A DNA stretch of 64,000 bases. Origin: Cymodocea nodosa. Lineage: Eukaryota; Streptophyta; Magnoliopsida; Alismatales; Cymodoceaceae. The first letter of the stretch is position 1; each line of letters opens with the position of its first letter. The stretch is taken from the NCBI GenBank assembly GCA_036874045.1, contig CM072341.1:6956501-7020500 (forward strand), read 5' to 3'. Below the pieces are notes generated by a model. It ran no database searches, was not told the DNA's origin, and worked only from the letters and a program-made list of their open reading frames with translations. Below are positions 1 through 32,571 of the stretch, one piece after another. Position numbers and translations under genes: made by a program.

Positions 1-590
1 ACTCGTTAAGCTAGAGTGTTATTTTATATAGAGATCACGTGAGAACTCATTAAGTTAGAGGCTTAAAGGTTAAAATAGGTCATGTGAGAACTCGTTAAGT
101 TAGTGAGTAAAAGAAGAGATGAACTTGTTAAGTTAGTGTTGTACATGTGGTGAATTAAAAGTTACGAATATTATATTGTATCACGTGAGGTGCACATGTT
201 TAACTCGTTAAGTTAACATAACTAAACGTGTTGAGTTGCTATATTGAATACTAAGGCAACGCATTAGGTTAGCGTTATAAAACTTAAGTTGTTATTTTTG
301 CACGTTGTTTAGAATGAAAAAGTGCATAATATTAACAGTTAAATGATGGTTAATTACATTATATTTAGCTTATCATATGAGAATTAAGGCATTATGTTAT
401 AATTGTACTGTTATATGCTTTAATGAAAGAATTTGCATAATTTCAGGGAATTAATGTTAATTTAGTACATTTTTGAATTGTTAGTAAATTGCAGGCTGTA
501 AAATTCTTAAGTATCCGAATTTTCTATTATTTCAGAGAGTTATATTTAAAGTACTGGACAGTTATATTTTAAACGCTAAAAGAATATTCA

Positions 591-839
591 GGTACATAGT
601 AACAACTCGTTAAGTTAAAGGCTTAAAGATGTAAAAGGTATAGTAACAACTCATTAAGTTAGTGAGTAAAAATCATAAGTTGTATATCTAAACTCGTTAA
701 GTTAGAATTATGCACGTGTTGAATTTAAATGCTTTAGTAGATCACGTGAGGTGCACATGTTTAACTTGTTAAGTTAGCATAACTGTACGTGTTGAGTTAC
801 ATGAATACACAATAAGGTAACGCGTTATGTTAGCTGCTT
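591..839 (+). promoter_or_regulatory. Copia-like U3 module inside the gypsy LTR
   Basis: Repeated units of the type ACTCGTTAAGTTAG, two G-box-related sites and the stretch around TCACGTGAGGTGCACATG occur here in the same order as in the copia family-A LTR (1-290 and 42969-43236). On either side the gypsy LTR is alignable with F's LTR (which has an unrelated block at about 15682-15823). Boundaries are judged by eye and may be off by some tens of bases. A role as an enhancer/promoter-proximal block is inferred from its place upstream of the TATA box. Confidence 0.72.
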
Positions 840-1090
840 ATTTCTTTATTACACGTGTTTTATAGTTAAATCAACGAAATAAGTCTGTTGAGTTATCTGT
901 AACTCCACGGACCATTTATTTTCTAATATGCCACTGTAGTGGCTACAGAAACAGGACAATTGAAGGAAAACCACAATTGCACGTATCACGTAGGAATTCA
1001 CTTGTGGAAGGAAGAAGAAATCACCATCGTTGATATGAATGAAGGAAATCCAACCGATCATCTAAGCAGAAGTAGTTACTACTGAAGAAA

Positions 1091-1098
1091 TATAAAAG
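1091..1098 (+). promoter_or_regulatory. TATA box of the solo gypsy LTR
   Basis: TATAAAAG, conserved at the equivalent place in the other gypsy LTR (minus strand, 15421-15428). It follows the U3 repeat region, as expected for an LTR core promoter. Confidence 0.6.
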
Positions 1099-3263
1099 AA
1101 GAGGAGAAAAAATGAAGAAAGTGTGGTTGGTAGTGTGTGTGCAGAGGTGGAGGATCGTGCTAACTGCAAGTAGCATCGGAAGTTCCCTGAAGCTCCACAC
1201 CAACATCACCACCATCACCATAATCACCAACCATCGGAGGTCTATGATGATACTTTCCTAATGTCGGGTCAATTCCGAGCCAAACATGGTGCCTGACAAC
1301 CATTGTGAGGAGTGATCGCGTCGCAGGAAGGGAAGCCATTTTCACCAAGCACTGAATCATATCTCAAGAGATCATAAAGCTTCTAGCCTTGGTTTCGGGT
1401 TGATGCTAGTATGCTGAAGAGGAGATCATCTTGCAATTCTAGACTCGCAATTCTATAGGGAGAGGAGACAAGATTGTAAGTGATTAAGTTTTCAGTGGTG
1501 TAATCACGTCGCATGTAGTGACAGAAGTTTTTACTATCGATAGAGATTTTTACATTTGACCTTTCACCCATTTTCATGGACATATCAAAACAAAAATACC
1601 AAAAACAATAACTTATCTGTGTTTACATTTAGTATTTAAGTGTTGTACTATTTGTTCTGTATTGTGATTAATGTTATCATTGTCAGTATTGTGAATGTTT
1701 TATGTTTGTTTGATTCAGAAAATAGAAAATAGTTTTACAGTTTACTGAAATTGATTCGTACCAGATACTTAAAGATTTTAATTATTACTATTTGAAATGT
1801 CTGAATGTTAGTGTTGCTTAATGATAAATCTAATATTAACTAGCATTAAAGAGCTTAATTGATGTTATTTACAATTTATGGAACTGCCCAATGGTTGGCT
1901 GGATTCCTCTATAAGTAGTAGTATTTAACTGGAAAAATAAGCTCGTGGAGTTAACTTAAGTCCACGAGGTTAGTCCGTTGAGTTAGCCATAACTCTATGA
2001 ACTTAGTCTGTTGTGTTAACTGTAACTCAACGGAGTGCTTAACTGAACACATAAACTCTAATATAAAAATCAGGACAATATACAATTCTTACTCAATCTT
2101 TGTGGGATCGACCTGTACTTGCACACAAATACAATATACACTGTGCACTTGTAGTTAAAATACAAATTAGAATTAATATCTAATTTGTGTGAAAGGTTGT
2201 TTGTTTACTTCTAAAAGTAATTATTGATATAAACATAAAGACAAAGTAAACAAGTTGTTTGATCTAATCTTTCACAACCAATACACACGCGGTAAAATTC
2301 TTATTATAAAACATTTGTTTATTACTGGTTCATTGAGTTATCTATAACACAACAGAGATGGTTCGTTGAGTTATTGTAACACCACGAAGCTGGTTCGTTG
2401 AGTTAGCGTAACACCATAGACTTAGTTTGTTGAGTTAGCTATAGTACTTGTCATGTGAGTTGGCACATGAGGAACTCGTCAAGTTAGAAACGTTAAGTTA
2501 TATATATACTTGTTTTACTCGTTTAGTTAACATTAAAGTAACGACTACTTATTACACCTGATGAAAAACTTTTGGATGAGAAAGTTTATTTTGTAGGAAA
2601 ATTTTCAAAGATCTAGGATTAATGATTAAAAAAAATTCGAAATGTAAATGTGGGTTAGAACATGTGTATTTCGATGAAGGAAAAAGAGAAGACGTGAAGA
2701 AGTGGAAAACTAGTAGTGATTAAACGTGGAGGATATGTATGAAATGAAGATACAGTATAAAAGGCATAGAATTCTCATTGATCAATTATCCCTACACACC
2801 AAACGAAAAATCTTTTCAGGGATCAAAAACACTTTTCGGGGAAAAGCTCTCAAGTGGAAGAAAATTCAGTGAAGTAGAAGAAGGTAAGATCTATGTCATT
2901 GAAGATCTGAAGTATCAAAAGAAAGCAAATTTGGTGAAGCAAAAAAAGATAAGATATTTGTCACTGAAGAAGAAAAAGTAGAAGAAGAAAGATCTCAAAC
3001 AAGGAGAAATGTTTTAAATTCCGCAAATTAGTTTTCTTTGTTTGTAGTTATGAAATTGTATAGATGAAACATAGTATCGATATATAATTGCATCTACAAT
3101 TTCTAAGGAGAATTAAATTGTATATTGTAATTAAAACCTTGAATAAAAATAATTTTATGAAAATAGTGTTTCTACCTATTTTTAAGTTTTGAAGTTTCAA
3201 TTATAATAAAAAATGTTGAAATACACAATTCACCCCCCTCTTGTGTAGCCATACGATCCTACA

Positions 3264-3967
3264 AATGCAATTGATATATCTGATACTAAATATATATATC
3301 TATCAAGTATGACATGTATGTTGTTAATTAATGCTTTCTGTCCTAGATATATCATAGTATTTTCAGTCTAAGATCTATTTAGAAAATCATACACACATAA
3401 ACATAAATCTTCATCCCAATTTCCAATTGGTCTCTATGAATACAATTTTTCAGGAATGATCAAATTTTTATCAAAAAATGTTAAAGCTGACCCACAATTT
3501 TCAGTTGGTACTTCAAATGTATTAGGCCTTCCTATATTCCATTCTTCTCTAGTGATAGGATTTCTAATCAAAATATCGGGTAACAAAATTGCATACCTTG
3601 GTTTGGTTCTGTATATAATTAATCATTCATCTATCCCCATAATATGATCTATTCCTTCTAATGTCTTAGGTGGAATTCCAGCATTTTCTTCCATATTCAG
3701 ATATTCATAGTTGATTGAACTACGATTAAATGACTTCCCTAAATATCCATCTCTAATCTTAGTCATTTTTGCAGCTTGTAGTCCATGAAAATATTTTTCT
3801 CTAACACAGTCTTTAATTTCTTTTGATACACAACACAATTTGCATAGATCTTTAGCTGATAAGTTACTTAGTACTTCCCTCAATGCATCTAGTGGTAATT
3901 TCATTAATTTCATCTGTTGTGATTCTATATAACACAAACAAAAATTTAACAAAGATAAAATTAACAT
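3264..3967 (-). pseudogene. F-box-like reading frame, truncated
   Basis: The first 115 codons (3967-3623) hold an F-box-like segment: KLPLDALREVLSNL, then SAKDLCKLCCVSKEIKDCV, which follows the LP..L...LS.L..KDL....CVSKEW pattern that binds SKP1 in plant SCF ubiquitin ligases. The better start is the Met at 3913, because the upstream stretch reads as an intron end (see findings). After a stop at about 3623 the same frame stays largely open for another 60 codons (RYAILLPDILIRNPI..., then W, C and aromatic residues), and two further stops precede the copia LTR at 3263. It lies sense to element F, downstream of its gag-like frame. It may be a captured host gene fragment or an accessory gene of the element. 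No recognisable substrate-binding repeats are present. Confidence 0.6.
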
Positions 3968-4142
3968 ATCTACTTACATACCCTTGTGGAGTTAGGTCAT
4001 AACTCAATGGACTAAGTTTGTTGAGTTAAGTAGCTACTCTACGATATTACTAACTATAATTAAACTTATATATATATATTTTTTCTTTTTATATTTTTCT
4101 TGTACTTACTATATTATACATAGTTGCTTCAGTTATACTGCT

Positions 4143-5491
4143 TCATTTAGCTTCCCTTACATAAGAGGTATCAATTTCATTAATAGTTCTATTGACAAGG
4201 TTAGGTACTACTTGCATTGGCAGTCCTCTAGTAGGTCTAACTTCTATTGATTCCTTCTGTCTAAGGGGTGTATTTCTATTCATATTTTGATTTTGAATGA
4301 CAACATTTCCAAATACAAGATCTAGACGATTGTTTAATTCTTGAATTATCTTTTCTAACTTCTCTATTCTAGATCCTTGTTTAATTAATGCTTCATAACT
4401 TATATTTTTGTCATTTATATTTTCTCCTCCCTGGAAATTGTTATTTCTCCAAGATAGATTCGAGTGATTTCTCCAATTAGGGTTATAAGAATTTCCAAAG
4501 TTATCTTTCTAGTTTCTAGTATAAATAATATCTAAATCATTAATGTTTGCATTCTTTTCTGCTAGCTTTTGATTTAATGATAACTCTTCTATTTTCTTTG
4601 TTAACTCAATTAATTTAACTTCAAGCATAGTGCTTGAATCTATTTCATGCATTCCCCTTGGCAATATTTTTTTATCTATAATAGCTTTAGCTGAGTTTTC
4701 CTATTGTGTAGTTCTTTTTGCAAAGTTTTCTAAGTATGCCTATGCTTCTTTACTACATAGTTTTAAAAATCCATTTTGACAAGTAGATTCTAATAAAGAT
4801 TTCATTGAAACATCTATGCCTTCATAAATTATACCTATTAATTATGCTTTACTCATTGTATGATGTGGACATTGAGTCAGTAAATCTTTAAATTTTTCAA
4901 AATATTTCCAAAATGATTCTCCCTGTTTTTGGCTACACATTAATATTTCCTTTTTCTTTTTAATTGTTTGATGTGTTGGATAATATTTTTCTAGAAAAAT
5001 AGAGTAAAATTCAGTCCATGTAGAAATTGAATCCGGCGATAGAGTATATAACCATCTCTTAGTTGTGTCTTTTAAAGCAAAATGGATATATCTAAGTTTA
5101 ATAACATCAATACTCATGTTCGGTATTTTCATCATTTGACAAATTTCGTTAAATTCTCTAAGGAAATAATAGGCATCTTCTCTTTCTAGTCCATGAAAGT
5201 GTGGCAATTGACTAATATAATTAGATTTCAGTTCAAACCTATCTCCCTTAAAGTTTGGCAATCGAATACATGAATGTTCATCAACTAGTTCAGGATATAG
5301 AATTTCCCCTAATGATTTTTCTAGTGGAACAACCATATCTTTATTCTCTTTTAAAGAAAGGTTAGCTACACCCCTAAGGATTTCATTAAAGTCCATTCAG
5401 AAAATATTTCAGTACGCCTCTGTGTTAAATAATCCTGTGTAGGTGTTCTTACTAATTGTTTAGTGTTAGGAGAACGAATCCATGTGCTCAT
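4143..5491 (-). pseudogene. Gag capsid-like ORF (Retrotrans_gag type) located after ORF3
   Basis: From ATG at 5491 (MSTWIRSPNTKQLV...) a one-base shift at about 5396 leads into 184 codons typical of Athila/Tat gag: FELKSNYISQLPHFHGL, then HFALKDTTKRWLYTL, FYSIFLEKYYPTHQ and a closing LLTQCPHH. Beyond a stop at about 4840 the same protein continues with short interruptions through a coiled-coil-like stretch, the gag hallmark NPNWRNHSNLSWRNN, a second coil and an end at 4143. No CCHC zinc knuckle follows it and no protease, which is unusual. A TATA-like sequence (5669-5676, minus) and palindrome repeats lie upstream, so it may be a separately transcribed unit. The alternative is the remnant 5' part of another gypsy element. 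Confidence 0.8.
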
Positions 5492-5668
5492 AAACTCTTA
5501 ATATAAAGTAAAATAGTAGAAGATTAATTACATACCAGTCTGATGCTTTGTTTTCAGTAAATAGTTATTGATAGATGAAGTTGAATCAGTTTCTTCTCGT
5601 TCCAGTTTCCCAACGAATTTTCTTTCCTTCCTCAAGTGCTGGTAACTCGTAAATAATATTCTATTCTA

Positions 5669-5676
5669 TATTTATA
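5669..5676 (-). promoter_or_regulatory. TATA-like box upstream of the gag-like ORF
   Basis: TATAAATA on the minus strand, downstream (in minus sense) of the palindrome array and before the ATG at 5491. Function is inferred from position only. Confidence 0.4.
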
Positions 5677-5857
5677 ATGCACGTCCATAAGGCAAATGAA
5701 TCTCGTTGCAAGAACGTGTCTTGTAACATCTAGTATGGTTCCTATTTTTATGGATACATGTTTCACTTCTAATTTCAAATTTCAGTAACCGCTGAACTCA
5801 TGAAGTTTTGTTCGTGGCTAAAAGAATAACCGTTCAGCTTAATCCAAGAACTAACCT

Positions 5858-6065
5858 CATTGAGTTACAGTTAACTCAATGGACTAGCTTCAGTTACTAT
5901 TTCTAAATCAACAAACTAACCTCGTTGAGTTACAGCTAACTCAACGGACTAGCTTTGTCGCCTATTTGCTAACTCCACGGACTAACTTCGTTGAGTTATA
6001 GATAACTCAATGGAGTGACCTTATATTTTATTATTGACCTCATGGAGTTAAGGTTATCTCAACGG
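5858..6065. repeat. Tandem array of about 65-bp units, each with a 24-bp palindrome
   Basis: Two perfect inverted repeats with 10-base arms and a four-base centre lie at 5858-5881 and 5923-5946, a near-perfect one at 5989-6012, and a weaker one near 6045. Starts are 65 and 66 bases apart. Arms are of the type CGTTGAGTTA and TAACTCAACG. The same arms appear in the copia family-A LTRs and near the F LTR and ORF3 leaders. Confidence 0.85.
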
Positions 6066-6545
6066 ACTTATTTCCTTGAGTTAACACTTAGAAAATTTCT
6101 AAAACTTACTCCTCATATTAACTTCTATATATATATATTTTTTCTCTCCTACATTTTGTCAACTTAAATAAAGTTAAATATATGTCATTAATGCAGTTTC
6201 TAATTTAAACTCATTAAATCTAAACATTATATGCATATTTAACTTACAGTTCATTTCCTGTTGTGCAAAATTTACATTTTACTTTTCAAAATGCAGATAT
6301 ATTCAGGCATTAACCAATTATCGTGCATTTAACCATGTCATTCATAAAATTTGTAAATCTTTTAAACATTCTTGCACATCTTTTAAACAATTATATAATA
6401 TTCAATACAGTTCTCAATTATATCATTCATTCTCAAACACAAATGCAAAAACATCTGAAATTAAAACATTCATTTATATGAATAGTTACATTTACATACA
6501 ATCAGATATTTTTTCAATACAAATATAAGTAGACGAACAATACAA

Positions 6546-8721
6546 TTAGTCCTTATTCCTAAGTTTATCTACTTCCTTCTAGAGCTTTTCTAGTTGTTGT
6601 TCTAATTGATTTATCCTCTCAACAGCTCCAATAATGTCTCCAAAAGGTCTAGATATTTCAGTAGTTGCAGCATTGTAATTTCTACATTCCTTCACTGAAA
6701 TGGCTCTTGATCTTATCCTTTTGGATGCTCATTTTGTGAAGTCAATACAATCCACCATTAGTAGTGGAATCAGATCTCCATAAAATAATTTGTTCTTTAC
6801 TACTCTCAGTTTGGAGATAAATACCTTGTACCAATTAACCTAAATTTTGTTCAAAACTACATATGTGGTCCACTTGACAAATTGACTAAGTTCAATGTCG
6901 TGGCCTTGTCTTTGATAAATAGTTTTAACCAGTATGGTTGCAACCATGTGTGCCTTTTCATTTAAGTACTTCAGTCTGTTTAATAATGACACACTAGGGT
7001 CGATGGCTATGCACTATTTCATTTCCTGTTCAGCCCATTCCACTACAGTTGTTTCTTCCAGAATTTCAATTCCTTCATTTCTCAGTCCGAAAATATTGTG
7101 GAGAAGCTCTGGTGTTATCTATACATCAGCTTGCTCTACGTTGGAAATTAATCCACTTTCTTCTTCTCTTAAATTGGCATAAAAGTAGGGCACTAGATTT
7201 TCATATATTGCATGCCCTCTCTACTAAGAAATAAATTGCAGTAGACCTTGGAACTCAAATAAGTCCTTAATTTCTTGCATACCGTCCTAGTTTACTAGTC
7301 TACTGTAAATAATATCATACCCCTTCATCTCTTGATATTTATTATAAGCTTCCTAACTCCAAAAGTGTACTTCATTTAGAATGGTAGCTTCAGTTCGATC
7401 AGAAATTTGCATTTGTTGCTCCAAAAGTGTTTGTTCTTGAATTTCTTCTTGCATATGCTGAACTTTAATTTGCTAGAAATGCTCAGAAGATTCCTACATT
7501 TTTGTTTTTGCTTCTGTCTATAGTGGAGAGCTGACAAAACTCTCCACTCTTCTTTCTTGAATCCTCTCTAAAATTTGCTAAAGAGTCTCTCCCTCTTCAG
7601 TGGAATATGTCAAGTCATTTCTTTCTTGTTCCTTTTGCTCTTGTTCAGTTTCTGTTCTTTCTTCTTCCTCTTGACTACCAATCTGCATTGTTATTGTTCT
7701 TTCTAATTCTGTGGTATATTGGGATGGAGTTACGGGCAAATCAGCTTTTGACCTAATTTCAATTTCTTCTCTTTGTATAGGTTGTAGACTAATTTCAGCC
7801 TATTTTTCTTCTTCTCTTTGCTTTTGCTACTACTGCTCCTGCTCCTCCTCAGATTCGGATAGCAGGTCTACAAAAATTGGCTCTACAGGCCCTTCTGATA
7901 TTATAGGTTTAGGTTTAATCTCTTCTAGAGCTTCAGACACTATCTCTTTTCCTTTCTTTCTTCTAATTAGCTGTGTCTGGTCTTCCTCTTCCTCCTTTGA
8001 GATTAAATCTACAAAATTGGGCTCTACAAGCCCTCGAGCTACAGGTACTAGCTCTTCCTATTTCACTTTTTCTATAACTACTGGTCTCGAAGGACTAGCT
8101 TTAGCTTCTCTTGCAACCCTTGATCTAGTTGCTTCCTAATGTTGCTCTACTTTAATTTTGTATTGGGCCTTCAACTTTTCTTCAGCCCTTCTTTTCTTTA
8201 TGGCATCATACAGAATATGTGCCTTGGCCATAGCCATTTCTTCATCATCTCCTTGGTCTTTTTCTATTTTGACCAAGCTAGCAAACTCTTTATCCTTTTC
8301 TTCAGTTCTCAACCAAGCAAATGTTACTCATGGTAATGGCTCTATTGGTAGAACTAAAGGTCCTAGCTGTTGTTCCTCAATAATTGGTCTTTCAACAATT
8401 GGCTCTGCAACTATAGGTTCTTCAGCTACTTTCCTCTATTACTCCCGCCTAATTTCACCTCTTGCACAACCAGCAATTTCTCGTAGGAACCATAATCTGG
8501 CCTTGCATTGGATCAATTCTAGGGCAACTTCCTTGTTTGGCTTGATTCTTCTTTCTCTATTTACTACCACTTCTGTTGCTACTTTTATCCTCATCTTTAC
8601 AATTTGAGGTATTGTAATATTTAAATCTACTAAGACTTTCCTCTAGTAGAAAATATCAGATTCTACCTTTTAGAGTTCTTTTTCCCTCGTCGTGTTCCTG
8701 ATCTTTTGTCACGTGTGCCAT
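6546..8721 (-). pseudogene. ORF3 of gypsy element F (putative plant transposon-protein type)
   Basis: Start taken at ATG 8721 (MAHVTKDQ...), end at TAA 6546; many stops and shifts. An alternating acidic/basic middle (EEEEDQTQ, EEQEQ, REEEK, near 7600-8000) precedes a core that aligns with the copia ORF3 proteins: IKDLFEFQGLLQF (about 7271-7233), YENLVPYFYANL, then GLRNEGI (about 7085). Further on come LNEKAHMVATILV, VNWYKVFISKL and LFYGDLIPLL (about 6790-6763). A C-terminal coiled coil (INQLEQQLEKL) closes it. Lies between integrase and the gag-like ORF. I see no signal peptide or membrane segment, so an envelope role is not supported. Function unknown. The antisense Ser-rich open frames at 7711-8607 are shadows of its acidic codons. 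Confidence 0.75.
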
Positions 8722-9429
8722 TCTTCTAATTCTCTGAGAAATCTCGTCGTGTCTATTTCCTCTTAGAACTCTGGAGTTATCTTGTCTTCATGGTGTGACG
8801 GAACGGAACGGAATCGCTCTGATCTCTACTATTCTAAGTTCTAAATGATTCTGCGGATAATGCCCCCAAATCCTAAGTTTTAGTATAAATAAACCCTAAG
8901 TTTTAAGCAAGTAATCGGGTCATTTTCCTGTGCAAACTCTCGTTCTCTCACTCACTTCTCCATGAAGTTATGGCTAACTCCATGGACTAAGTCTGTGGAC
9001 TTAACTACAGTACTCCATTGAGTTATAGTTAACTCAACTGGGTAAGTTAGTTAACTTATCCTAGACTCAATGAAGTAAGTTCATTGAGTTAAGCGTAACA
9101 CAACAGACTTTTCGTAAAGTTATAACTAATAAAAATACTTATAATAATAATTTTTACTTCGGTCAAGATCGAAGAATTTCCGATCTAATCGACTCTTAAT
9201 TTTTTAACATTTTAGAATTTCGGTCAAATCGTTATATTCCTCGATTGAACCGAAATTAAATACTTTTTTTTTCTTCTACCGGTTGAACCGATACCATGCT
9301 TTGGTAAAATCGACATTTTTACTTAATATAATATATAGATTTTTTATGTTTTTATGTTTCGGTCAAACCGATAGATCTTATCGGTTGAACCGCAATGATT
9401 TTTTTTTTTTTTTGAATATTTAGATAATT
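8722..9429 (-). other. Spacer between integrase and ORF3 of element F
   Basis: No coding signal. Holds the CGGTT-type inverted repeats (9160-9415), GTTGAGTTA/TAACTCAAC-type palindrome remnants at 8960-9110, and a TATAAATA (plus-strand reading) at 8884-8891 near the ORF3 start. Probably the leader/promoter region of ORF3; this is inference. Confidence 0.5.
9160..9415. repeat. Cluster of CGGTTNAACCG-type inverted repeats
   Basis: Sites reading CGGTCAAATCG, GATTGAACCG, CCGGTTGAACCGAT, CGGTCAAACCGATA and TATCGGTTGAACCG lie within about 250 bases. The last two form a 33-base near-palindrome at 9360-9392 centred on AGATCT. A poly-T run of about 17 follows at 9399. Unlike the GTTGAGTTA palindromes elsewhere, this motif is seen only here. 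Confidence 0.75.
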
Positions 9430-10662
9430 TCTTACTAAGTAAAGCTCGAGTAGTCCTCTACTCTTACTTCTTCTATAATTCCAAATGAACTTTTTGGAAT
9501 CTTCAAAATATGACTAAGTCTTTGTCCATTTACTTTGAATATATTCTAATTTTTAGGATTTTCAATTTCAATAGCTCCATAGGAATAAATATTTCGAATT
9601 ATATAGGGTCCTGCCCCCTTAGATCTTAATTTTCCTAGATGGTTATGGAGTTTAGTCATGTAAAGATATACTTCTTGTCCTATTTCAAAAGTTTTTGATA
9701 TATTTTCTTGACATGCCAGAACTTCATTTTCTCTTTTTCTCTTATAGTTTTCAAATAAGCTTAATTCCTAAATTCTTCTAATTCAATCAATTACATTTTC
9801 CTATTTTCAACAGCTTGATTTAAATTAGTATTCAGAGTTTTTAATGCCCAAAAAGCTTTATGTTTAATTTCAGCTAGTAAATGACAACTTTTTCCATATA
9901 CTAGCCTAAAAGGTGACATACCTAAGCTTGTCTTATAAGTAGTTCTATAAGCCCAAAGTGCATCTATTAATCTATTAGCCCAATCTTTTCTAGTAGGATT
10001 TACTACTTTTTCTAAGATTAACTTAATTTGTTTATTTACACTTTCTACTTATCCACTTGTTTGCAGATGATATGATGTTGCAATTTTATGATTTACTTCA
10101 TATTTATTCATTAAGGCTTCAAAACTTCTATTACAAAAATGAGTTCCTCTATCTCTGATAATAGCTTTAGTATTCCAAATCTGGCAATTATATTAGTTCT
10201 TATAAAATGTATTACCACTTTGTTGTCATTAGTTTTTGTAGGAATAACTTTTATCCATTTAGATACATAATCCACCCCCAACAATATATAATTAAATTGA
10301 TTAGACATAGGAAATGGACCCATAAAATCTATTCCCCACACATCAAAGATTTCAACCTCAACAATAGGATTCAGAGGCATCATATTCCTCTTTGATATTC
10401 TTCCTATTTGTTGACATCTTAAACAACTTAAGTAGTATTTATAAGCATCTTTGAATAGTGTTGGCTAGTAAAAGCCACATTGTAGAATTTTGGTCGCAGT
10501 TTTCCTTAAACCAAAATGCCCTCCACATGCTTGGTCATGGCAGAAAGATAATATGCTTCGATATCTAGTTTTTGGAACACACCTCCTTAAAACCAAATCA
10601 GGACATTTCTTAAATAAGTATAGGTCTTCCCAATAGTAATATTTTACTCTTGAAAAGAACAA
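9430..10662 (-). pseudogene. Integrase of gypsy element F
   Basis: Reading from 10662: the HHCC zinc region (SFCHDQACGGHFG, then CLRCQQ), the catalytic core beginning VWGIDFMGPFP with first Asp, LGVDYVSKWIKVIPTKT, a decayed second Asp region (SEIEEL in place of SDRGTHF) and a frameshift near 10111. The rest continues in another frame: [15 protein letters not shown] with the catalytic Glu, [33 protein letters not shown] in segments, and a C-terminal part to about 9430. The order RT-RH-IN identifies Ty3/gypsy. The protein is inactive as it stands because of stops and the damaged DDE centre. Confidence 0.88.
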
Positions 10663-10779
10663 TTTCTTATCCTATCTATTCCAATCCTTAAGTGTTAAAT
10701 CAATAACTAAGTAATTAACTATGTCTGCATACCAAGGCATTGTGTTGATGATCATTAATTGTTCATCAGGAAAATTATC

Positions 10780-12249
10780 CTTAATTTTAATATTTGATTT
10801 TTCTATTTGTAATCTTGATAAATGATCTGCTACTACATTCTCATAACCTTTTTTATCTTTAATTCCTAGATCAAATTCTTGTAATAATAATATTCATCGG
10901 ATCAATTTAGGTTTAGTCCCTTTCTTTGCTATTAGGTGTTTTAAAGCTGAATGATCTGTGTATACTATCACTTTAGATCCAATCAGATATGATCTAAACT
11001 TTTCCAAGGAAAACACAATAGCTAATAGCTCTTTTTAAGTAGTTGTATAATTAACTTGAGCATCATTTAAAGTTTTGCTTGCATAATGAATCACTCTAGG
11101 AGATTTTTCTATCTTCTATCCTAGCACTGCTCCTACAGGAAAATCAGATGCATTGCACATTAATTCAAATGGATGGCTCCAATCAGGTGCTTGTATTATA
11201 GGAGTTGAAATTAAGCCAGTCTTGAGCTTGAAAAATGCTTCTTTGCAATTTTTATCAAAGTTAAATGGGACATCTTTTAATAGATTAGTTAAAGGTCTAG
11301 CTATTTTGCTAAAATCTTTAATAAATCTTCTATAAAATCCAGTATGTCTTAGAAATGATCTAATATCTTTTATTGATTTAGGTTCTGGTAGATTAGAAAT
11401 TACTTCTATTTTAGCTTTATCTACTTCCAACCCTTTCTTTGAAACAACATGTCCCAAGACTATTCCCTGTTTAACCATGAAGTGACATTTTTCCCAATTT
11501 AGAACTAGACTTTTTTCCACACAGTGTTTTAATACTTGGACTAAATTGTTTAAACATACTTCATATGAAGTTCTATATACAGTAAAATCATCCATAAATA
11601 TTTCTAAAAAATCTTCAATTATTCTAGTGAATATACATTAGATACACTTTTGAAAGGTGGTTGGTGCATTACATAATCCAAATGTCATTCTCTTAAAAGC
11701 ATAAGTTCCATTAGCACAGGTGAAAGTTGTTTTCTCTTGATCCTCTAATGCTACTAGAACTTGGTTATATCCTGAATACCCGTCTAGGAAACAAAAATAT
11801 TCTTGCCTTGCTAATTTCTCTAGCATTTGATCTATAAAAGGTAAGGGAAAATGATCTTTCTTAGTCACAACATTCAGCTTTCTATAGTCTATACACACTC
11901 TCCAGCTTGATTGAATTCTAGTAGGTATTAAGTCTTGACTTTCATTCCTAATAACTATTAATCCTGATTTCTTGGGAACCACATGAATTGGACTAACCCA
12001 TGAGCTATCAGAAATCGGATAAATTATGTCATTATCTAACCATTTCACTATTTCCTTCCTAAGTACTTCTTTGAGGTTTGGATTTAATCTCCTGCCAGGA
12101 ATTCTAACTGGTTTAACATTCTCTTCTAAATATATGTGGTGATAGCATAAAGTTGCACTTAACCCTTTTATATCAGTCATAGTCCATCCTATTACCTCTT
12201 TATAAGTTTTTACTACATCTTTTAATTTAGCAATTTGATCCTCTTTCAA
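10780..12249 (-). pseudogene. Reverse transcriptase-RNase H of gypsy element F
   Basis: One frame from 12249 with stops near 11637, 11115 and in the RNase H. RT landmarks in order: WVSPIHVVPKKSG, WRVCIDYRKLN, DHFPLPFIDQMLE, FLDGYSGYNQ, TTFTCANGTYAFKRM, FGLCNAPTTFQ, then FMDDF (the catalytic YxDD box, Athila form) at about 11590 and the LNWEKCHFMV and GFYRRFIKDFSKIARPL segments of the connection. RNase H follows ([38 protein letters not shown]). This is the best uninterrupted reference copy for the broken RT of element E. Confidence 0.92.
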
Positions 12250-12363
12250 ATCTGAAGCAATAATGATTGGACATGTTCGTTTTTCTTCTAGAAATATATA
12301 GGTTAATTCAGGAGGTAAAGGTTTTAAATCTAAATGTTGACCATCAAAAGCTAGAGCTCCTAA

Positions 12364-13160
12364 TTAAACATTTTCATTTTCTATATAAATCTCTTCTTGA
12401 TCTCCTTCTACATTTATGCTTTCACTTTCTTCTAAAGTTTCAGAATTTAGTTGCCTATTTAGTTCTTCTTGAATCACATCATCTAGTATATCTCCTTCAT
12501 CCTCTAAAAAGTCTATAGTATATAAGGACATTTTTAACTTCTCAAACTTTTCTAGTTTGAAAATGTTTAATTGAGTATCCTCATTATCATATGCTAACTT
12601 CATTACTCCAATTTTACAATTTATAACAACCCTTGATGTTGCTACGAATGACCTTCCTAAAATTAAAGATGTATCATGATTTTGATGCTTAATTTGTTGG
12701 GAATCTAAAATTACAATATCAATAGGATATATGAAGTTTTTGATTTTAATTAAGACATCCTCTATTTTTCCTCTAGGATATCTTATACTTCTATTAGCTA
12801 ATTGAATAACAGTCCTAGTAGGGATTAAGCCTTCTAATCCTAAGGACATAAATATATCACTTGGCATAACATTTATACCTACACCTAGGTCTATTAAGGT
12901 TCTTTCTAGAATAGTATTTCCTATGGTACATGATATAACAGGGATTCCAAGATCAGATAACTTTTTAGGAATTTGTGGCAGAAATAGGGAACTACTTTGC
13001 TTAGTTAAAAAGACTTTCCTTAAAACTTTTCGCTCTCTTTTCTTAGTACACCAATCCTTAAGAAATTTAGCACAAGGTGGCATTTTTTGCAATAAGTCTA
13101 ACAAAGGAATGTTAACTTGTACTTTTTCAAAAATTTCTCTAATTTTTTCTTGCTTTTCAG
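12364..13160 (-). pseudogene. Aspartic protease region of gypsy element F
   Basis: Typical Athila/Tat gag-protease junction: LLDLLQKMPPCAKFLKDW, then ISCTIGNTILERTLIDLG (catalytic D-L-G), VGINVMPSDIFMSLGLEGL, VIQLANRSIRYPRGKIEDV and VIILGRSF-like tail SLILGRSFVATSR. An acidic linker follows (VEGDQEEIYIENENV) and a stop near 12363 before the RT frame, which is otherwise the same frame. The protease active site reads DLGVG rather than the more usual DSGA/DLGA. Confidence 0.88.
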
Positions 13161-14047
13161 GAATGTTTATTGTAATCTTTCAAGATAGGGTGCTAATGAT
13201 TGTGATTTAAAAGATTTTTTTTCTTTCATTTCATTTGTTTGATCATTTTTAGTCTCATTTTCAGATTTAGATTTTTCTTCATTGATTTCTACATTTTCAA
13301 ATATTACATTTTCATTATCATTTTGATTTTTATTCTTATCCACCTTCATATTACTTTCTTTTTGAATTCTTGGTGGTATATCAGTTCCAGATCTTAATGT
13401 TATACATACATCTTCCAAATTTTTATTACTTTCATGATGTTCTTGTATTTCATTTTCATAATTTTGATCTTCAACTATTTTTAGTTTTAAATTGCATTCT
13501 TTAAATTCTATTGCATTGGTATTTTCTTTTGTTTGTATGTCTTGCAAATTATGCAAATCTGTAACATTAAAATTTTCATTTATGTTTTCCTGTTGCATAA
13601 CTTGTAATTTCATTGTAAATTCATCCAATGCTTTTAGTTTTCTTTTTAGATCATCTAATCTCATTACATTCAATTTTTGATCAATTTTCATTATGGTTTT
13701 TTCAGTTTCGTATATGATATTAATTTTAGGTTTTGTATATTCTTCCCTATAGTTTAATTGGTTGACTTCTTGTTGCTGACACATGTATTTTTCTAGTTTG
13801 TCTATGATTTGCTCTAAGCTACGTTCTAGTCTGTCATACCTATCCCAAACTTCCTTGTCTCTCGACATATTACACATTCTAAACTAACCATCAGCTGGGT
13901 AAACTATAGGATTCTCGTACTCAGCTTTATTATATTGAATATAATTCATTTGTTGTTCATGTGATCTAACAATTTGCAATCGTCTCATTTTCAAACAATC
14001 AGAGATGTCGTGACCTTCCAAATTGCAGAATTCACATATGCTAACTA
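13161..14047 (-). pseudogene. Gag C-terminal part with zinc knuckle, gypsy element F
   Basis: A CCHC zinc knuckle, CEFCNLEGHDISDC (C-X2-C-X4-H-X4-C), is encoded at 13995-14036, then a Gln/Asn/Glu-rich stretch with coiled-coil character (LERSLEQIIDKLEKYM, DDLKRKLKALDEF) ending APYLERLQ, the junction with protease. A one-base shift near 13165 separates it from the protease frame. Only about 120 bases lie between the zinc knuckle and the primer site, so the capsid domain that should precede it is absent here; a capsid-like ORF is instead at 4143-5491. Confidence 0.85.
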
Positions 14048-14165
14048 CAAGTTTTAGAAATCTTTGAGCCTAAACATATCCCATATTCTCAATTATAAAA
14101 TGAAACATACAACACTCCTTCTTCTATTAAAACAAAACAACACTCATAGTTGCTTAGCTTCTCAA

Positions 14166-14183
14166 TCCCCGACAATGGCGCTA
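14166..14183 (-). other. Primer binding site of F (tRNA-Asp type)
   Basis: Plus-strand TCCCCGACAATGGCGCTA matches the 3' end expected for tRNA-Asp at 15 of 18 positions; all three differences are transitions. It starts about 64 bases from the LTR end inferred at 14248, farther than usual. The stretch 14184-14247 contains a duplicate (GCTAGAAAACTTATTT) of LTR sequence at 14284-14299. Confidence 0.7.
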
Positions 14184-14247
14184 GAAAACTTATTTGGGGT
14201 TGTTAAGTTAATTCTTAAACTTGTTTATAGAGCGGCATTAGAAGACT

Positions 14248-16101
14248 TGTATTGGATTTGTGAACTTATATTTGTTAAATAGTGCTAGAAAACTTATTTA
14301 ATTTGCTTTTATGCTTATATAAATAATTACTTTTAGAAGTAAACAAACAACATTTCGCATAAATTAGATATTAATTCCAATTTGTATTTTAACTGTAAGT
14401 GCATAGTGTATATTGTATTTGTGTGCAAGTACAGGTCGATCCCACAAAGATTGAGTAAGAATTGTGTATTGTTTCGATTTTTATATTAGAGTTTATATAT
14501 GTTCAGTTAAGCACTCCATTGAGTTACAGTTAATACAACGGACCTAGTTCATAGAGTTATGGCTAACTCAATAGACTGACCTCATGGACTTAAGTTAACT
14601 CCATGAGCCTATCTTTCTAGTTAAATATTGCTATTTACAAAGGAATTCGGCCAACCATTGGGCGGTTCCACAAAATGTAAATAACATCAATTAAGCTCTT
14701 TAATGTTAGTTAATATTAGATTTGTTATTAAGCAACACTAACATTCAGATATTTCAAATAGTAACCATTAAAATCTATAAGTATCTGGAACAAATCAATT
14801 TTAGTAAACAATAAAATTATTTTCTGAATTAAACAAACATAAAACATTCACAATACTGACAATGATAACATTAATCACGATACAAAACAAACAATACAAC
14901 ACTTAATGCTAAATGTAAACATAGATAATTTGTTGTTTTTGGTATTTTTGTTTTGATATGTTCCTGAAGATGAACGAAAGGTGAAAGGTAAATATCTCTA
15001 TCGACAGTAAAAACTTCTGTCACTACATGCGATGCGATTACACCACTAAAAACTTAATCACTTACAATCTTGCCTCCTCTCCCTATAGAATCGCAAATTA
15101 AGAATTGTAAGATGATCTCCTCTTCAGCATATTGGCATCAACCCGAAACCAAGGCTAGAAGCTTTACGATCTCCTGAGATATGAGTTAGTGCTTAGTGAA
15201 AATGGCTTCCCTTCTCACGACGCAATCACTCTTCACAGTGGTTGTCGGTCACCATGATTGGCTCAGAATCGACTCGACATCAAGAAAGTATCCTCACAAA
15301 CCTCCAATGGTTGGTGATTTTGGTGGTTTTGGTGGTGGTGTGGAGCTTCAAGGAACATCTAATACTTTTTGCAGTTAGCGCGGTTCTCCTCCAACACACT
15401 TTTTTCGTCTTTCTCCTCTTCTTTTATATTTCTTTTAGTAATAATTGCTTCTACTTAATTGACTAGTTGGATTTCCTTCATTCATATCAATGATGGTGAT
15501 TTCTTCTTCATTCCACAAGTGAATTCCTGTGTGATACGTGTAATCGTGGTTTTCCTTCGAATGTCCTATTTCTACAACTGCTACAGTAGCATATTAGAAA
15601 ATAAATGGTCTGTGGAGTTACAGATAACTCAACGGACTTACTTCCTTGATTTAACTATAAAATACGTGTAATAAAGAAATAACTAGTTCAGATGTTTTGG
15701 ATACTTACAAACCTTAACTATTCGATGCTTAGATGCATTTTGGATAGTTACCAGATAACTTACGGAACATTCATTTAAGTCATGTATTATGGTTTCAACA
15801 CGTGTATTCTAGGAAATAAAATATTCTTTAAGCATTTAAAACATAACTATTCGGTACATGCAATATAACTCTCCGAAGTAATAGAAAATTCAGATACTTA
15901 GGAATTTCAAACCTGCAACTTACCAATAGTTCAGAAATATACTTAATTAACGTTAATTCCTTGAAATTATGTAGATTCTTTCATTAAAGCATATAACAGT
16001 GCAATTATAACATAGTGGCTTAATTCTCAAATGATAAGTTAAATATTATGCAATTAACCATCATTTAACCCTTAATATTATGCACTTTTTCATTCTAAAC
16101 A
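14248..16101 (-). mobile_element. 5' LTR of gypsy element F
   Basis: 1854 bases, TG...CA on the minus strand, homologous to the solo LTR at 306-2285 over both ends. TATAAAAG on the minus strand at 15421-15428. The run ACAGGTCGATCCCACAAAG near 14431 (plus strand) lies at the position common in Athila/Tat LTRs next to the primer site. The right edge meets element E at 16102. No matching duplication can be tested because the other end is outside the window; the bases after 16101 are GATAT. Its U3 block 15682-15823 differs from the solo LTR and resembles copia D sequence at about 25730-25990. Confidence 0.82.
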
Positions 16102-17862: not shown

Positions 17863-19090
17863 TGTTAGGAATTTAATTTTGATGATATATGCTTTATTAA
17901 CATTTTTAAATAAGTCTACATAATATTCTCTAAGTATATTTCTCTAAGTATAACAGTTAACAGATTATCGAAAAGTTTCATTTTATGTTGGATAAATTAA
18001 AGATTTCCGAAGAGTTAGATTTGTAATAGTTAAACTTTCGGATAGTTAACGTCTCATTTTTGTCGAATACTTTATGTCAAAAACTCGTATAGTTAAGTTA
18101 TCTACACGTGTGTTTTTAATGTTTTAAGTTGTGACATGTTTTGCATGTGCGTTTGGTAATGAAAAATTGAATAATTAGATAAATCGAATAATTAGATAAC
18201 TGTTCGAGTTTTTATGCGCATGGATAGATAACTATTCGAGTTTTATAAAAGGACTAACGAACAGATAAGTTTCCTTGTTTAGTCACGTGTTTTGCAGGTG
18301 CACAAAAACTCGAAGAGTTAAAGGATAAGTGTTCGAGTTTTTACAGGACTTAAAGGATAAGTGTTCGACTAAATCGAAAACTTAGAAGATATTCTACAAG
18401 ACTCCAGGAAGATAAAAGTTTCGATATATCTACGAGTGGAGATCGTGTTAATTCCAAATGATTGTGAAGAAAGTGGAAACTCAGAAAGAAAGCAATTTGG
18501 ATTAAAGAGAAAATTAGTACGTGGATTATGGATTAAGTGGATGAACATGCTAAACGTGAAAGACAACAGAGTTCGACTACAAATAGAGAGTACGAGCTAC
18601 ATTACAACAAGGGATCCCAATCTCAAAAACCAAGTATGAATATTCAATCTGGATCCCTAACTGAAAAGTTAAGTTTGAATATTCATATTTTGAAAAAAAT
18701 TCTCCAACATCAGAAGAAGTTCAAAATTCCAAGCAATTTTAAAAAAGGAGCTGCAAATGCAAGAAGTCTAGAAATTCGACAACTAGAGAAGAAGAGATAC
18801 AGAAGCTGAGCAAAGAGAAAGAAAGAAATTGTGTTCATAAAGATCAGGTTTTATACAATTCAAAATTAGTTTTGAATAAGAGCTTTGTTTTTCTATTTGA
18901 ATTGTATATCAAACATTATTGTATCAAAACCTTTAAGAAGGGAATTGAGCTTAAAAGATATTGTAAATTCTATTTTTAAATAAAGAATAGAATCTCATTT
19001 ACGAGTGTTTTGTGCTCTTATTTTATCTGCTAGTATTTAATTACTAAAGACACAATTCACCCTCCCTCTAGTGATACAAACAATCCTACA
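17863..19090 (+). mobile_element. 5' LTR of copia D
   Basis: Begins TGTTAGGAATTT, ends CCTACA. Contains repeated elements of the type ACTCGAAGAGTTA and AACTGTTCGAGTTTTTA between about 18080 and 18370, which echo the ACTCGTTAAGTTAG units of family A. Short open frames around 18436-18809 are also seen in the 3' LTR and lie in the leader; I do not treat them as genes. Confidence 0.92.
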
Positions 19091-25519: not shown

Positions 25520-26020
25520 ATAATTCATCTCTTATGAACTATTATACGTTTTCATGAAAAAATCTACATAATTTCAGAAAATACACTTTAATTAAGTATA
25601 TTTCTAAGCTGTCGGTGACTTGCAAGCTTTTTAAATTCTTAAGTATCCGAATTTTCTATTGTTTCGGCAAGTTATATTGCAAGTATCGGACAGTTATGTT
25701 TTAAAACATTCAGTAGAATATTTTATTATTTCCTAAAGTACACATGTCGAAACCATAATGCATGACTTAAGTGGATTTTTAGTAAGTTATCTATAACTCT
25801 CTGAAATGCGTCTAGGCATCAGATAGTTAGATTTATAACTGTCTGAAACATCTCTTTATTATAAAACTGCTTAAGTACACGTGTCGTGATCTGGAAGATT
25901 GACTTACGTTATCTTTCGGAAGGTTATCTGTAACTCTCCGAATTGTGCCTACGCATCAGATAGTTAGGTTTATAAGTCTCTAAAACTATTTGAACACCTT
26001 AAGTTCAAATTATGCACGTG
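25520..26020 (+). promoter_or_regulatory. Gypsy-LTR-like U3 block inside copia D
   Basis: A 28-base stretch at 25633-25660 is identical to 501-528 in the gypsy solo LTR, and the neighbourhood (TACATAATTTCA, TTAATTAAGTATATTTCT, CGAAACCATAATGCATGACTT-like, CATCAGATAGTTAG) follows the order seen in F's 5' LTR read on the minus strand (about 16000 down to 15690). It ends with AATTATGCACGTG, also found in the solo LTR at 709-721. The block precedes ORF3. Homology is seen by eye; promoter activity is inferred. Confidence 0.78.
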
Positions 26021-26531
26021 CTGAATTTCATTACTTTATAATGTCTCAGTTGAAACTCGAATAGTTATGTTTAACTCTTCGACTTTCACACCTATCCATT
26101 CAAGAAACTCGAATAGTTAACTTAATATTATTATATTTTTTGAAAGACTTAATCTCTGATAATAACTATTCATGTTTGTCGTATATTTATGTGCTTTACT
26201 GTTCACAAAACTCGAATAGTTATCATAAGTCTTTGAGTTTTCTCACTTTTCACTTAGCCTGAAGTTATTTTCTTTATATGAACAGTTATACTAAGTATTC
26301 TGCATTTGTTGGTTGTAAAACTTGTATAGTTATTGCAAGCACTCGAGTTATTTATCGGTAACAGATCTTATAGTTCTGATTTCAATGATTGAATCTGTTT
26401 ATCCGTTTATAAACTCGAAGAGTTATAAATGTTTTACTAACAACCTTTCGTGTTTCTACCTTGGTAAAACCCTAGCTTCACAATCTTTCCTTCCACTAAG
26501 TTCTACAGTGCACAACGAAGATTAATCAACA

Positions 26532-28402: not shown

Positions 28403-28547
28403 AAAGGGGGAGAAAATAGTTTGTTTACTTTTTTATAATGCCAAAAAGGGGGAGAAAATAGTTTGTTTACTTTTTTATAATGCCAAAAAGGGGGAGATAT
28501 AAATTATGTGACTTATTAGGTTTTGACATCAACAAAAAGGGGGAGAT
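28403..28547 (+). repeat. Polypurine tract cluster with 42-bp tandem units, copia D
   Basis: Four A(3-5)G5AGA-type tracts start near 28403, 28443, 28485 and 28534. The first three are spaced 42 bases apart as a direct repeat (AAATAGTTTGTTTACTTTTT within each unit); the last abuts the 3' LTR and is the presumed priming tract. Multiple PPTs are a known trait of Sireviruses. Confidence 0.88.
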
Positions 28548-29775
28548 TCTTAGGAATTTAATTTTGATGATATATGCTTTATTAACGTTTTTAAATAAGT
28601 CTACATAATATTCTCTAAGTATATTTCTCTAAGTATAGTAGTTAATAGATTATCGAAAAGTTTCATTTTTATGTTGGATAAATTAAAGATTTCCAAAGAG
28701 TTAGATTTGCAATAGTTAAACTTTCGGATAGTTAACTTTTCGGATAGTTAACGTCTCATTTTTGTCGAATACTTTATGTTAAAAACTCATATAGTTAAGT
28801 TATCTACACATGTGTTTTTAATGTTTTAAGTTGTCACGTGTTTTCCATGTGCGTTCGGTAATGAAAAATCGAATAGTTAGATAACTGTTCGAGTTTTTAT
28901 ACGCATGGATAGATAACTGTTCGAGTTTTATAAAAGGACTAACGAACAGATAAGTTTCCTTGTTTAGTCACATGTTTTGTAGGTGCATAAAAACTCAAAG
29001 AGTTAAAGGATAAGTGTTTGAGTTTTTACAAGACTTAAAGGATAAGTGTTCGACTAAATCAAAGACTTAGAAGATATTCTACAAGACTCCAGGAAGATAA
29101 AAGTCTCGATATATCTACGAGTGGAGATCGTGGAAATTCAAAATGATTGTGGAGAAAGTGGATACTCAAAAAGAAAGCAATTTGGATTAAAGAGAAAATT
29201 AGTACATGGATTATGGATTAAGTGGATGAACATGCTAAACGTGAAAGACAACAGAGTTCGACTACAAATAGAGAGTACGAGCTACATTACAATAGGGGAT
29301 CCCAATCTCAAAAACCAAGTCTAAATATTCAATCTAGATCCCTAACTGAAATGTTAAGTTTGAATATTCATATTCTGAAAAAAATTCTCCAACATTAGAA
29401 GAAGTTCGAAATTCAAAGCAATTTCAGAAAAGGAATTGCAAACACAAGAAGTCTGGAAATTCGACAACTAAAGAAGAAGAGATATAGAAGCTGAGCAAAG
29501 AGAAAGAAAGAAATTGTGTGCATAAAGATCAGGTTTTATTCAATTCAAAATTAGTTTTGAATAAGAGCTTTGTTTTTCTATTTGAATTGTATATCAAACA
29601 TTACTGTATCAAAACCTTCAAGAAGGGAATTGAGCTTAAATGATATTGTAAATTCTATTTTTAAATAAAGAATAGAATCTCATTTACGAGTGTTTTGTGC
29701 TCTTGTTTTATCTGCTAGTATTTAATTACTAAAGACACAATTCACCCCCCCTCTTGTGATACAGACGATCTTACA
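28548..29775 (+). mobile_element. 3' LTR of copia D
   Basis: Same length as the 5' LTR. Begins TCTTAGGAATTT (one change at the terminus) and ends CTTACA. A short duplication containing TTTCGGATAGTTAAC near 28725-28750 is absent from the 5' LTR. Confidence 0.92.
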
Positions 29776-30957: not shown

Positions 30958-32571
30958 TGTAGGATCGTATGGCTACACAAGAGGGGGGTGAATTGTGTAT
31001 TTTTAATATTTTCTGAAATATAATTGAAACTTTAAAACTCAAAAACAAGTCGAGACATTGTTTTCATAAAATCATTTTTATTCAAGGTTTCAATTACAAT
31101 ATACAATTCAATTCTCCTCAGAAATTGTAGATGCAATTATATTTCGATACCATGTATCATCTAAACAATTTCATAACTACAAACAGAGAAAACTAATTTA
31201 CGGAATTTAAAACTTTTCTCCTTGTTTGAGATCTTTCTTCTTCTTCTTTTTCTTCTTCAGCAATTCTTCAATGACGAATATCTTGTCTTTTCATGCTTCA
31301 CCGAATTTGCTTTCTTCTAATACTTCAAATCTTCAGTGACGAAAATCTTACCTTTTTATGCTTCACTAAACTTTCTTCCACTTGAGAGATTTTTCCCGAA
31401 GAGGTGTTTTTGATCCCTGAAAAAGATTTTTCTTTTGGTGTGCAGGGATGGTTTGATCCTTGAAAAGATTTTTCGTTTTGCGTGCAAGGATAAATTGATC
31501 AACAAGAATTCTATGCCTTTTATACTGTATCTTCATTTCATGCATATCCTTCACGTTTAACCACTACCAGTTTTCCACTTTTCCACGTCTTTTCTTTTTC
31601 CTTCATCGAAACACACACGTTCTAACCCACGTTTATATTTCGAATTTTCTTTAATCATTAGTCCTGGATCTCTGAAAAATTTCCTGAAAGTAAACTTTCT
31701 TGTCCAAAAATTTTTCATCAGTGTAATAAGAAGTCATTACTTTAATATTAACTAAACGAGTAACACAAGTATATATATATAACTTAACGTTTCTAACTTA
31801 ACGAGTTCACCATGTGCTATTTCACGTGACAAGTACTGTAGCTAACTCAACGAACTAAGTCCGTGGTGTTATGCTATCTCAACGAACCATCTCCGTTGTG
31901 TTATGATAACTCAACGAACCATCTCCGTTGTGTTATGATAACTCAACGAACCAGTAATAAACAAATGTTTTTATAATAAGAATTTTACCACATGCAAAAA
32001 TAACAACTTAAGTTTATAACGCTAACCTAACGCGTTGCGTTAGTGTTCAATATAGCAACTCAACGTGTTTAGTTATGTTAACTTAACGAGTTAAACATGA
32101 GCACCTCACGTGATACAATACAACATTCGTAACTTATAATTTTACCACGTGTATAACACTAACTTAACGAATTCGTCTCTTCTTTTACTCACTAACTTAA
32201 CGAGTTATCACGTGACCTATTTTAACCTTTAAGCCTCTAACTTAACGAGTTCTCACGTGACCTCTATACAAACAAAACTCTAACTTAACGAGTTGTCTAA
32301 ACGTGCACTATTCATGATATAGAAGATATAACATTAAAACATATCATGCTTTTCAATAAAAGCACACGTTAACTTAACGTTTAGCTAAATGAGAAATTAA
32401 TGCAACGAAATGACTAGTTATTAACTTCAGATCCAATACAGACAAGTATTTATATTAGTAAGCTTTTTCTGTATTAATTGATGATTTTAATTTCTTTTCA
32501 CAAGCAATAGTAATTGAGGAAATATGATTATTTTCATTCAGCACACATCATCAAAACAAAAATACTCAACA
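30958..32571 (-). mobile_element. 3' LTR of copia C
   Basis: 1614 bases. On the plus strand it reads TGTAGGATCG...ACTCAACA. It has one more copy of a 32-base palindrome unit (31886-31949) than its partner, which accounts for the whole length difference. Confidence 0.93.

Follow-up and report, generated by a model that had tools for sequence, protein, structure and literature searches.

Retrotransposon families of the window

The window analysed here, a 64,000-nucleotide stretch of Cymodocea nodosa DNA (C13:6956501-7020500 of a 374.6-Mb, 28-contig assembly), is plant nuclear DNA in character and is packed with nested long terminal repeat (LTR) retrotransposons. Classification of plant LTR retrotransposons is based on pol, with which their control regions are commonly assumed to be inherited. 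Two families of the window have the Ty1/copia order, integrase before reverse transcriptase (RT): rve is followed by RVT_2 within one open reading frame (ORF) in copia family A (LTRs of about 1.6 kb), and the same two domains lie in successive ORFs in copia family B (LTRs of about 1.23 kb).

Copia A carries the PPT AGGGGGAG with an AT/TG attachment at its 3' LTR (54189 [+] and 32581 [-]). Ahead of the 3' LTR of copia B are four AGGGGGAG octamers (28405-28545), the attachment of the last being AT/TC. In both families, repeated units are present in the LTR as well as in the linker; AACTCGTTAAGTTA and CTCGAATAGTTA are without a CGG-CCG core, and TCCGTTGAGTTA..TAACTCAACGGA, which occurs in copia A and in gypsy, has CCG..CGG on the outside. 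Criteria for Sireviruses (PPT, attachment, and motif core) were taken from the part of a published description that was consulted (PMC2829016); because the repeated units differ in type from the CGG-CCG one given there, we call both families only ‘Sirevirus-like’. Exact-pattern scans of genome-contig and viral-contig collections returned 0 matches each.

The gypsy LTR family

A solo gypsy LTR (306-2285 [+]), starting with TG and ending with CA, is nested in a copia-A LTR, the left and right parts of which lie at 1-305 (+) and 2286-3264 (+). It is a single LTR with a 5-bp target duplication, its flanks reading CACGT and CACGC (four of five letters alike, one mismatch). The reverse nesting, a copia-A LTR inserted in a gypsy LTR of the layout that we call solo-type (see below), is found at locus L004.

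The second gypsy LTR of interest is the 5' LTR (14248-16101 [-]) of an element, F, that runs from 16101 to 3264 and is truncated there by the copia-A LTR, so that its interior is kept at 3264-14247 (-). In sense, this LTR leads into the C-terminus of gag with a zinc knuckle, a protease, and the start of RT (14069-11902 overall; RT start at 12363-11902 [-]). A search with the protease ORF gave 10 proteins, nine of which are named plant proteins (Cephalotus, Nicotiana). From 10992 down to 9337, F is colinear with two other loci of the genome, L039 and L045, with RT-RNaseH preceding integrase, which is the Ty3 order; the colinearity continues down to 3263 except for a change near 5900-6040. ORFs of both loci contain RT_RNaseH and rve above cut-off, with Integrase_H2C2 above it in L045 and below it in L039. 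The 5' LTRs of two further elements, E1 and E2, lead into the same protease and RT as that of F, and a PPT like AAGTATGGGGGAAG precedes six of the nine LTRs for which upstream letters were shown, including the solo-type LTRs of L005 and L008. From the style of its PBS and PPT (TAGCGCCATTGTCGGGGA; AAGTATGGGGGAAG before the LTR), its LTR length, and the likeness of its gag-asp protease, we tentatively take this gypsy family to be Athila/Tat-like.

A block shared by gypsy and copia-A LTRs

The first-pass annotation had described the solo and F LTRs as alignable at both ends, and had placed between these ends, at 591-839 of the solo LTR, a block following the U3 of copia A unit by unit. The ends do align (306-588 at 87.3% and 838-2256 at 86.6% to the F LTR read from 16101 to 14248, minus strand), and the block is real, although its extent is 604-834 (+). 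We refer to the 5' part of the gypsy LTR (306-588 [+]) as G5 and to the block as MS; positions 65-283 of G5 have a counterpart in the copia-B linker, to which MS is also partly common. MS is colinear with all six copia-A U3 copies found in the window, namely 43013-43243 and 54516-54746 (+), 32021-32251, 41181-41411, and 56560-56790 (-), and 44-273 (+) in the very LTR that hosts the solo LTR. Identity to these copies is 73.0-74.3% with gaps and 79.1-81.0% ungapped (E from 1e-41 to 3e-36). Sliding global identity of the solo LTR against F and copia A gives the same switch, but its loose gaps yield 42-75% to copia A outside the block, and we place no weight on it.

Chance or motif-only likeness was rejected by three controls. 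Local scores against copia A are 157-177, as opposed to 35 or less in dinucleotide shuffles (300 per copy); when the units of the copia copy at 43013-43260 are permuted, the native order is the best of 120 (177; next 160; median 96); and with units and CACGTG masked, the spacers alone score 64, compared with 28 or less in 500 shuffles. Spacers are identical in 100 of 139 columns and motifs in 79 of 82. A separate small insertion with its own duplication had been named as the reading that would undo the claim; inspected by eye, the edges of 604-834 have no matching duplication.

The divergence between MS and copia A (K2P 0.21-0.25; 0.214 against the copia-A majority letters, with 18 transitions and 23 transversions) exceeds that of the flanks between solo and F LTRs (0.138 and 0.126; 154 transitions and 39 transversions). 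By this measure, MS seems to have parted from copia A before the solo and F LTRs parted from each other, and a late arrival from family A is not supported. The copia-A copy next to the solo LTR was rejected as a recent donor, since 44-273 resembles MS no more closely than do the remaining copies.

LTR layouts across the genome

Four components were mapped in each sampled locus: G5 (306-588), MS (604-834), G3 (838-2285), and the module that lies between G5 and G3 in the F LTR (15683-15819 [-]), here called MF, which also occurs in gypsy LTRs of the mixed type and in the linkers of copia B. The best 40 genome places for MS have 90-100% identity to the query, and all eight loci cut from these matches (one being the window's own) have the solo-type layout, G5-MS-G3. 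For MF, 41 matches were listed, and the 30 loci cut comprise 29 gypsy LTRs and one copia-B linker (L011). Fourteen of these gypsy LTRs are F-type (G5-MF-G3), nine are mixed (G5-MF-MS-G3), and six are mixed with an additional copia-B LTR segment, MF thereby adjoining part of the copia-like block in 15 of the 29; each sample is biased by its MS or MF query. In mixed LTRs, MS is kept from its position 81 onward (in L015 only from 160). Junction patterns (two or fewer mismatches) occur genome-wide 403 times for the solo type and 414 times for the F type, with 0 and 1 matches, respectively, for reversed-pattern controls. Four of the F-type junctions are spaced 721-722 bp apart at C15:2876572-2878760, as in a tandem array of the gypsy LTR U3.

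The F LTR had earlier been said to carry an unrelated block in the place of the copia-like one, as the outcome of a swap. A different block is indeed there, but it is no substitute: judged by the sampled layouts, in which it co-occurs with MS in other gypsy LTRs, MF is an extra, second module. Because of this co-occurrence, loss of the copia-like block by deletion from a layout with both blocks is more likely for F than a swap. One locus, L019, retains the first letters of MS and then passes into G3 at the word GCACATG, an arrangement consistent with MS having been deleted between short repeats.

Segments of the copia linkers

The gypsy U3 has a second copia counterpart, located not in an LTR but in the copia-B linker (25535-26137 [+], between the end of pol and an ORF starting near 26534), that consists of G5 positions 65-283, MF (twice), and the start of MS. 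Its left part is 79% identical to the U3 of F, and at least 40 genome places match the whole at 90% or more; nine of these were read, as the bare stretch only, their flanks not included.

Another copia-B linker, L046, has flanks that are 75-89% identical to the window linker and less than 70% identical to gypsy, and a middle (8041-8430) whose identity to four gypsy LTRs of the mixed type is 76-98%, and 85-98% within 8221-8400. The tree of the linker segment puts L046 and 20 gypsy rows on one side and 10 copia-B rows on the other (100/100); L046 branches off immediately outside the gypsy clade (91/77, from an unsettled bootstrap), as if gypsy had received the segment from an L046-like copia element. 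Its distance to the window linker, 0.159 and 0.156 outside the segment, rises to 0.228 inside (computed without the duplicated module; 0.279 with it), as if the segment had come from a gypsy donor. The signs of direction at L046 thus conflict, the tree pointing to gypsy as receiver and the distances pointing to gypsy as donor.

Segment X, the last ca. 0.8-1.0 kb directly ahead of the gypsy PPT, is 74-78% identical to a part of the copia-A linker (36492-35485 [-]; 50009-51015 [+] in a second copy). Of 38 loci, 14 have X upstream of their gypsy LTR, the rest being 5' or solo LTRs or having other flanks; the seven loci fetched at length were picked for having X. Its depth to copia A (K 0.294) is similar to that of MS (K 0.25-0.28), and the two may therefore have moved in one period. 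As both are old splits (K 0.25-0.29), donor and recipient are only presumed for MS and X. An AGGGGGAG octamer is found within X of copia A (35568 [-] and 50933 [+]), distant from the 3' LTR.

A copia-B LTR segment within gypsy LTRs

The fourth shared segment, Bseg, lies in the 5' LTR (18031-18382 [+]) and 3' LTR (28733-29067 [+]) of copia B. Parts of positions 158-521 of the copia-B LTR are contained in six gypsy LTRs (L013, L014, L015, L031, L034, and L035), the main pieces being 77-88% identical to the two copia-B LTRs of the window.

The element E1 was assembled from its 5' LTR (L048), its interior with a nested gypsy LTR (L048 and L045), and its 3' LTR (L035). Its 5' LTR is at first 92-95% identical to the solo LTR, drops through a short unassigned stretch, is then for ca. 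320 bp mostly 78-100% identical to copia-B LTRs in sliding windows, and afterwards returns towards gypsy (67-90%). The same chimeric layout, Bseg included, is present in both LTRs, which differ by K = 0.085 over the 1911 sites held, and TCTAT stands on both sides as the target duplication (by eye; at the 3' end, the final letter of the LTR is altered). E1 reads as one single insertion. Since Bseg is in both LTRs and the target duplication matches, E1 already had the chimeric U3 before its last transposition.

Median K for Bseg is 0.128 between copia B and gypsy, 0.131 among gypsy copies, and 0.063 between the two copia-B LTRs of the window. Among the best 40 genome places for Bseg, 18 were read, and all 18 have copia-B LTR on both flanks (one being the window's own). 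An unrooted tree separates eight gypsy rows from 19 copia-B rows (97/95). The gypsy copies are more diverse than the copia-B copies, which makes for a poor fit with a late move from copia to gypsy.

The first-pass annotation had taken the solo LTR block as evidence of module exchange between the superfamilies, by a swap running from copia to gypsy. Sharing across the superfamilies holds, with the Bseg of both E1 LTRs, not the solo LTR block, as its clearest case; a simple swap at the solo locus gives way to the deletion suggested by the mixed LTRs. The direction was not borne out, as gypsy stands between the two copia families in MS: median K (ca. 64 sites) is 0.279 between gypsy and A, 0.328 between gypsy and B, and 0.619 between A and B, values that are nearly additive. 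In the MS tree, A and B are each a supported group; no bootstrap tree (0% of 200) has a branch with gypsy alone on one side. These relations weakly suggest that the gypsy family may have been the hub of the exchanges, a pointer drawn from ca. 64 sites and weakly supported forks.

Origin of the shared segments

By sequence comparison, four non-coding segments are common to the gypsy family and the two Sirevirus-like copia families: X (gypsy pre-PPT region and copia-A linker), MS (gypsy U3 and copia-A LTR U3), G5-MF-MS' (gypsy U3 and copia-B linker), and Bseg (U3 of some gypsy LTRs and copia-B LTR U3). The comparisons support the view that Ty1/copia and Ty3/gypsy elements share control DNA in pieces that would be explicable only by exchange, and in more than one place. 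The on-switch of one superfamily thus seems to be built partly from pieces of the other's.

We consider it probable that the modular gypsy U3 is homologous to control DNA of both copia families through template-switch chimeras that were later altered by deletions. Reverse transcriptase would switch template between gypsy and copia RNAs at short similar stretches, the switched U3 would be copied into both LTRs, and later deletions between short repeats would yield the present layouts. Template switching during reverse transcription appears to be the likeliest mechanism because the breakpoints lie within LTRs and linkers, not at LTR ends, and because a chimera is present in both LTRs of one element.

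The main rival is exchange at the DNA level, in which copia and gypsy elements nested in each other underwent illegitimate recombination or gene conversion, followed by transcription and movement of some of the hybrids. We hold this to be possible, with the odds against it. Nesting is dense (the solo LTR in a copia-A LTR, the copia-A LTR in the gypsy LTR of L004, the gypsy LTR in E1), and recombination after nesting would leave similar chimeras. A further element, E2 (C13; L049, L039, and L008), combines a 5' LTR of the mixed type, interrupted by a ca. 2.1-kb insert, with a 3' LTR of the solo type, and no target duplication flanks it; it was probably joined from two elements, and its unlike LTRs and missing duplication imply that DNA-level recombination occurs in this genome. 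Against this rival, no LTR ends or target duplications were seen at the segment joints, the copia copy in situ (44-273) has no special closeness to the solo block, and the presence of Bseg in both E1 LTRs and in six sampled LTRs would still require later transposition.

It is improbable that a third repeat, such as a small mobile element or a satellite, entered gypsy and copia LTRs independently. The evenly spaced F-type junctions on C15 indicate that U3 pieces can form a tandem array, but four different segments are involved, two of them contiguous with each other in gypsy; the edges of MS are without a matching duplication (by eye); and all 18 Bseg places read among the best 40 are whole copia-B LTRs, although any free copies of lower identity would lie outside that list. 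Convergence, by which both LTRs would have gathered the same short protein-binding motifs, could explain the recurrence of AACTCGTTAAGTTA units and CACGTG in all shared regions, but is very unlikely given the conserved unit order and spacers of MS, the ca. 1 kb of X at 74-78%, and the ca. 320 bp of Bseg at mostly 85-100% in sliding windows. Scarcely credible at all is that the solo/F LTR family is really copia and the sharing ordinary. The solo LTR lacks an interior, but the F LTR leads in sense into gypsy gag, protease, and RT and further on into a stretch colinear with RNaseH and integrase arranged as in Ty3; E1 and E2 have the same protease and RT behind their 5' LTRs; and the solo-type LTRs of L005 and L008 follow a gypsy PPT. 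A misassigned superfamily was rejected by the interiors of F, L039/L045, E1, and E2.

Control regions and known systems

Of 36 CACGTG sites in the window, 35 fall within 12.3 kb of U3 and linker regions, with 4.1 expected in the whole window from base composition; these regions were delimited manually with the sites already in view, and the copia-A copies do not count as independent. CACGTG and AACTCGTTAAGTTA units recur in all shared U3 and linker regions. The concentration of CACGTG is the only hint at common host regulation of both superfamilies, and the shared modules are putative enhancers that may place both under one host programme. A broader proposal, to which we would give an even chance, is that U3 enhancer modules form a shared pool, exchanged between the superfamilies through RT template switching with gypsy as the hub, and hence that control regions evolve as a network. 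Were such a pool to exist, control regions would cross a boundary that is taken to be closed in pol trees. If U3 modules do cross superfamilies, families with unrelated proteins could respond to the same activating signals of the host, the same small RNAs could meet both superfamilies, LTR-based grouping and dating would mislead, and the meeting of copia and gypsy RNAs in one particle would become testable.

U3 control regions have reportedly been replaced between subfamilies of Tnt1 and Retrolyc1, a replacement confined to one copia family, whereas the sharing described here is across superfamilies. In the portions of the literature consulted, other cases are likewise internal to families or lineages. 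Athila families of Arabidopsis (Ty3/gypsy) exchanged parts of LTR, gag, and env by recombination, the partners being other, distant Athila families, whereas here they belong to another superfamily and the segments are non-coding (PMC2410132). In the template-switch complexes of Triticeae, chimeric LTRs arose from switching between co-packaged RNAs and, as here, target duplications were used to prove one insertion; the cases in the part consulted join members of one family (Angela-like and others), none copia with gypsy (PMC1950507). Sireviruses bear repeated units both in the upper LTR half and upstream of an extra env-like ORF, together with multiple PPTs; units in the LTR and before an extra ORF, and several PPT octamers, also occur in the copia families here. 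Unlike in the consulted part of that description, AACTCGTTAAGTTA is without the CGG-CCG core, and the same stretches are also in a gypsy LTR (PMC2829016). ONSEN copies recombine during transposition bursts and are, by the title of the report, members of one family, compared with two superfamilies here (PMC5668417). Admixture within retrotransposon lineages is also in print, to go by the part consulted (PMC6527191). Searches of an open-access library, which lacks most subscription papers, listed no case of copia-gypsy exchange of LTR modules. Recombination within lineages is known.

Further features of the gypsy linker

Between integrase and the 3' LTR, the gypsy linker contains an F-box coding stretch (PF00646; L039:2296-3036 [-] and L045:2498-3034 [-]), the window counterpart of which lies within 9337-3264 (-); this stretch is a captured host gene. 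The linker with the F-box also has a weak second gag-like ORF, below the Pfam cut-off. The palindrome TCCGTTGAGTTA..TAACTCAACGGA is clustered in the gypsy linker, in the window at 4000-4030, 5849-6085, and 8975-9110, and the same unit recurs in gypsy LTRs and in copia-A LTRs.
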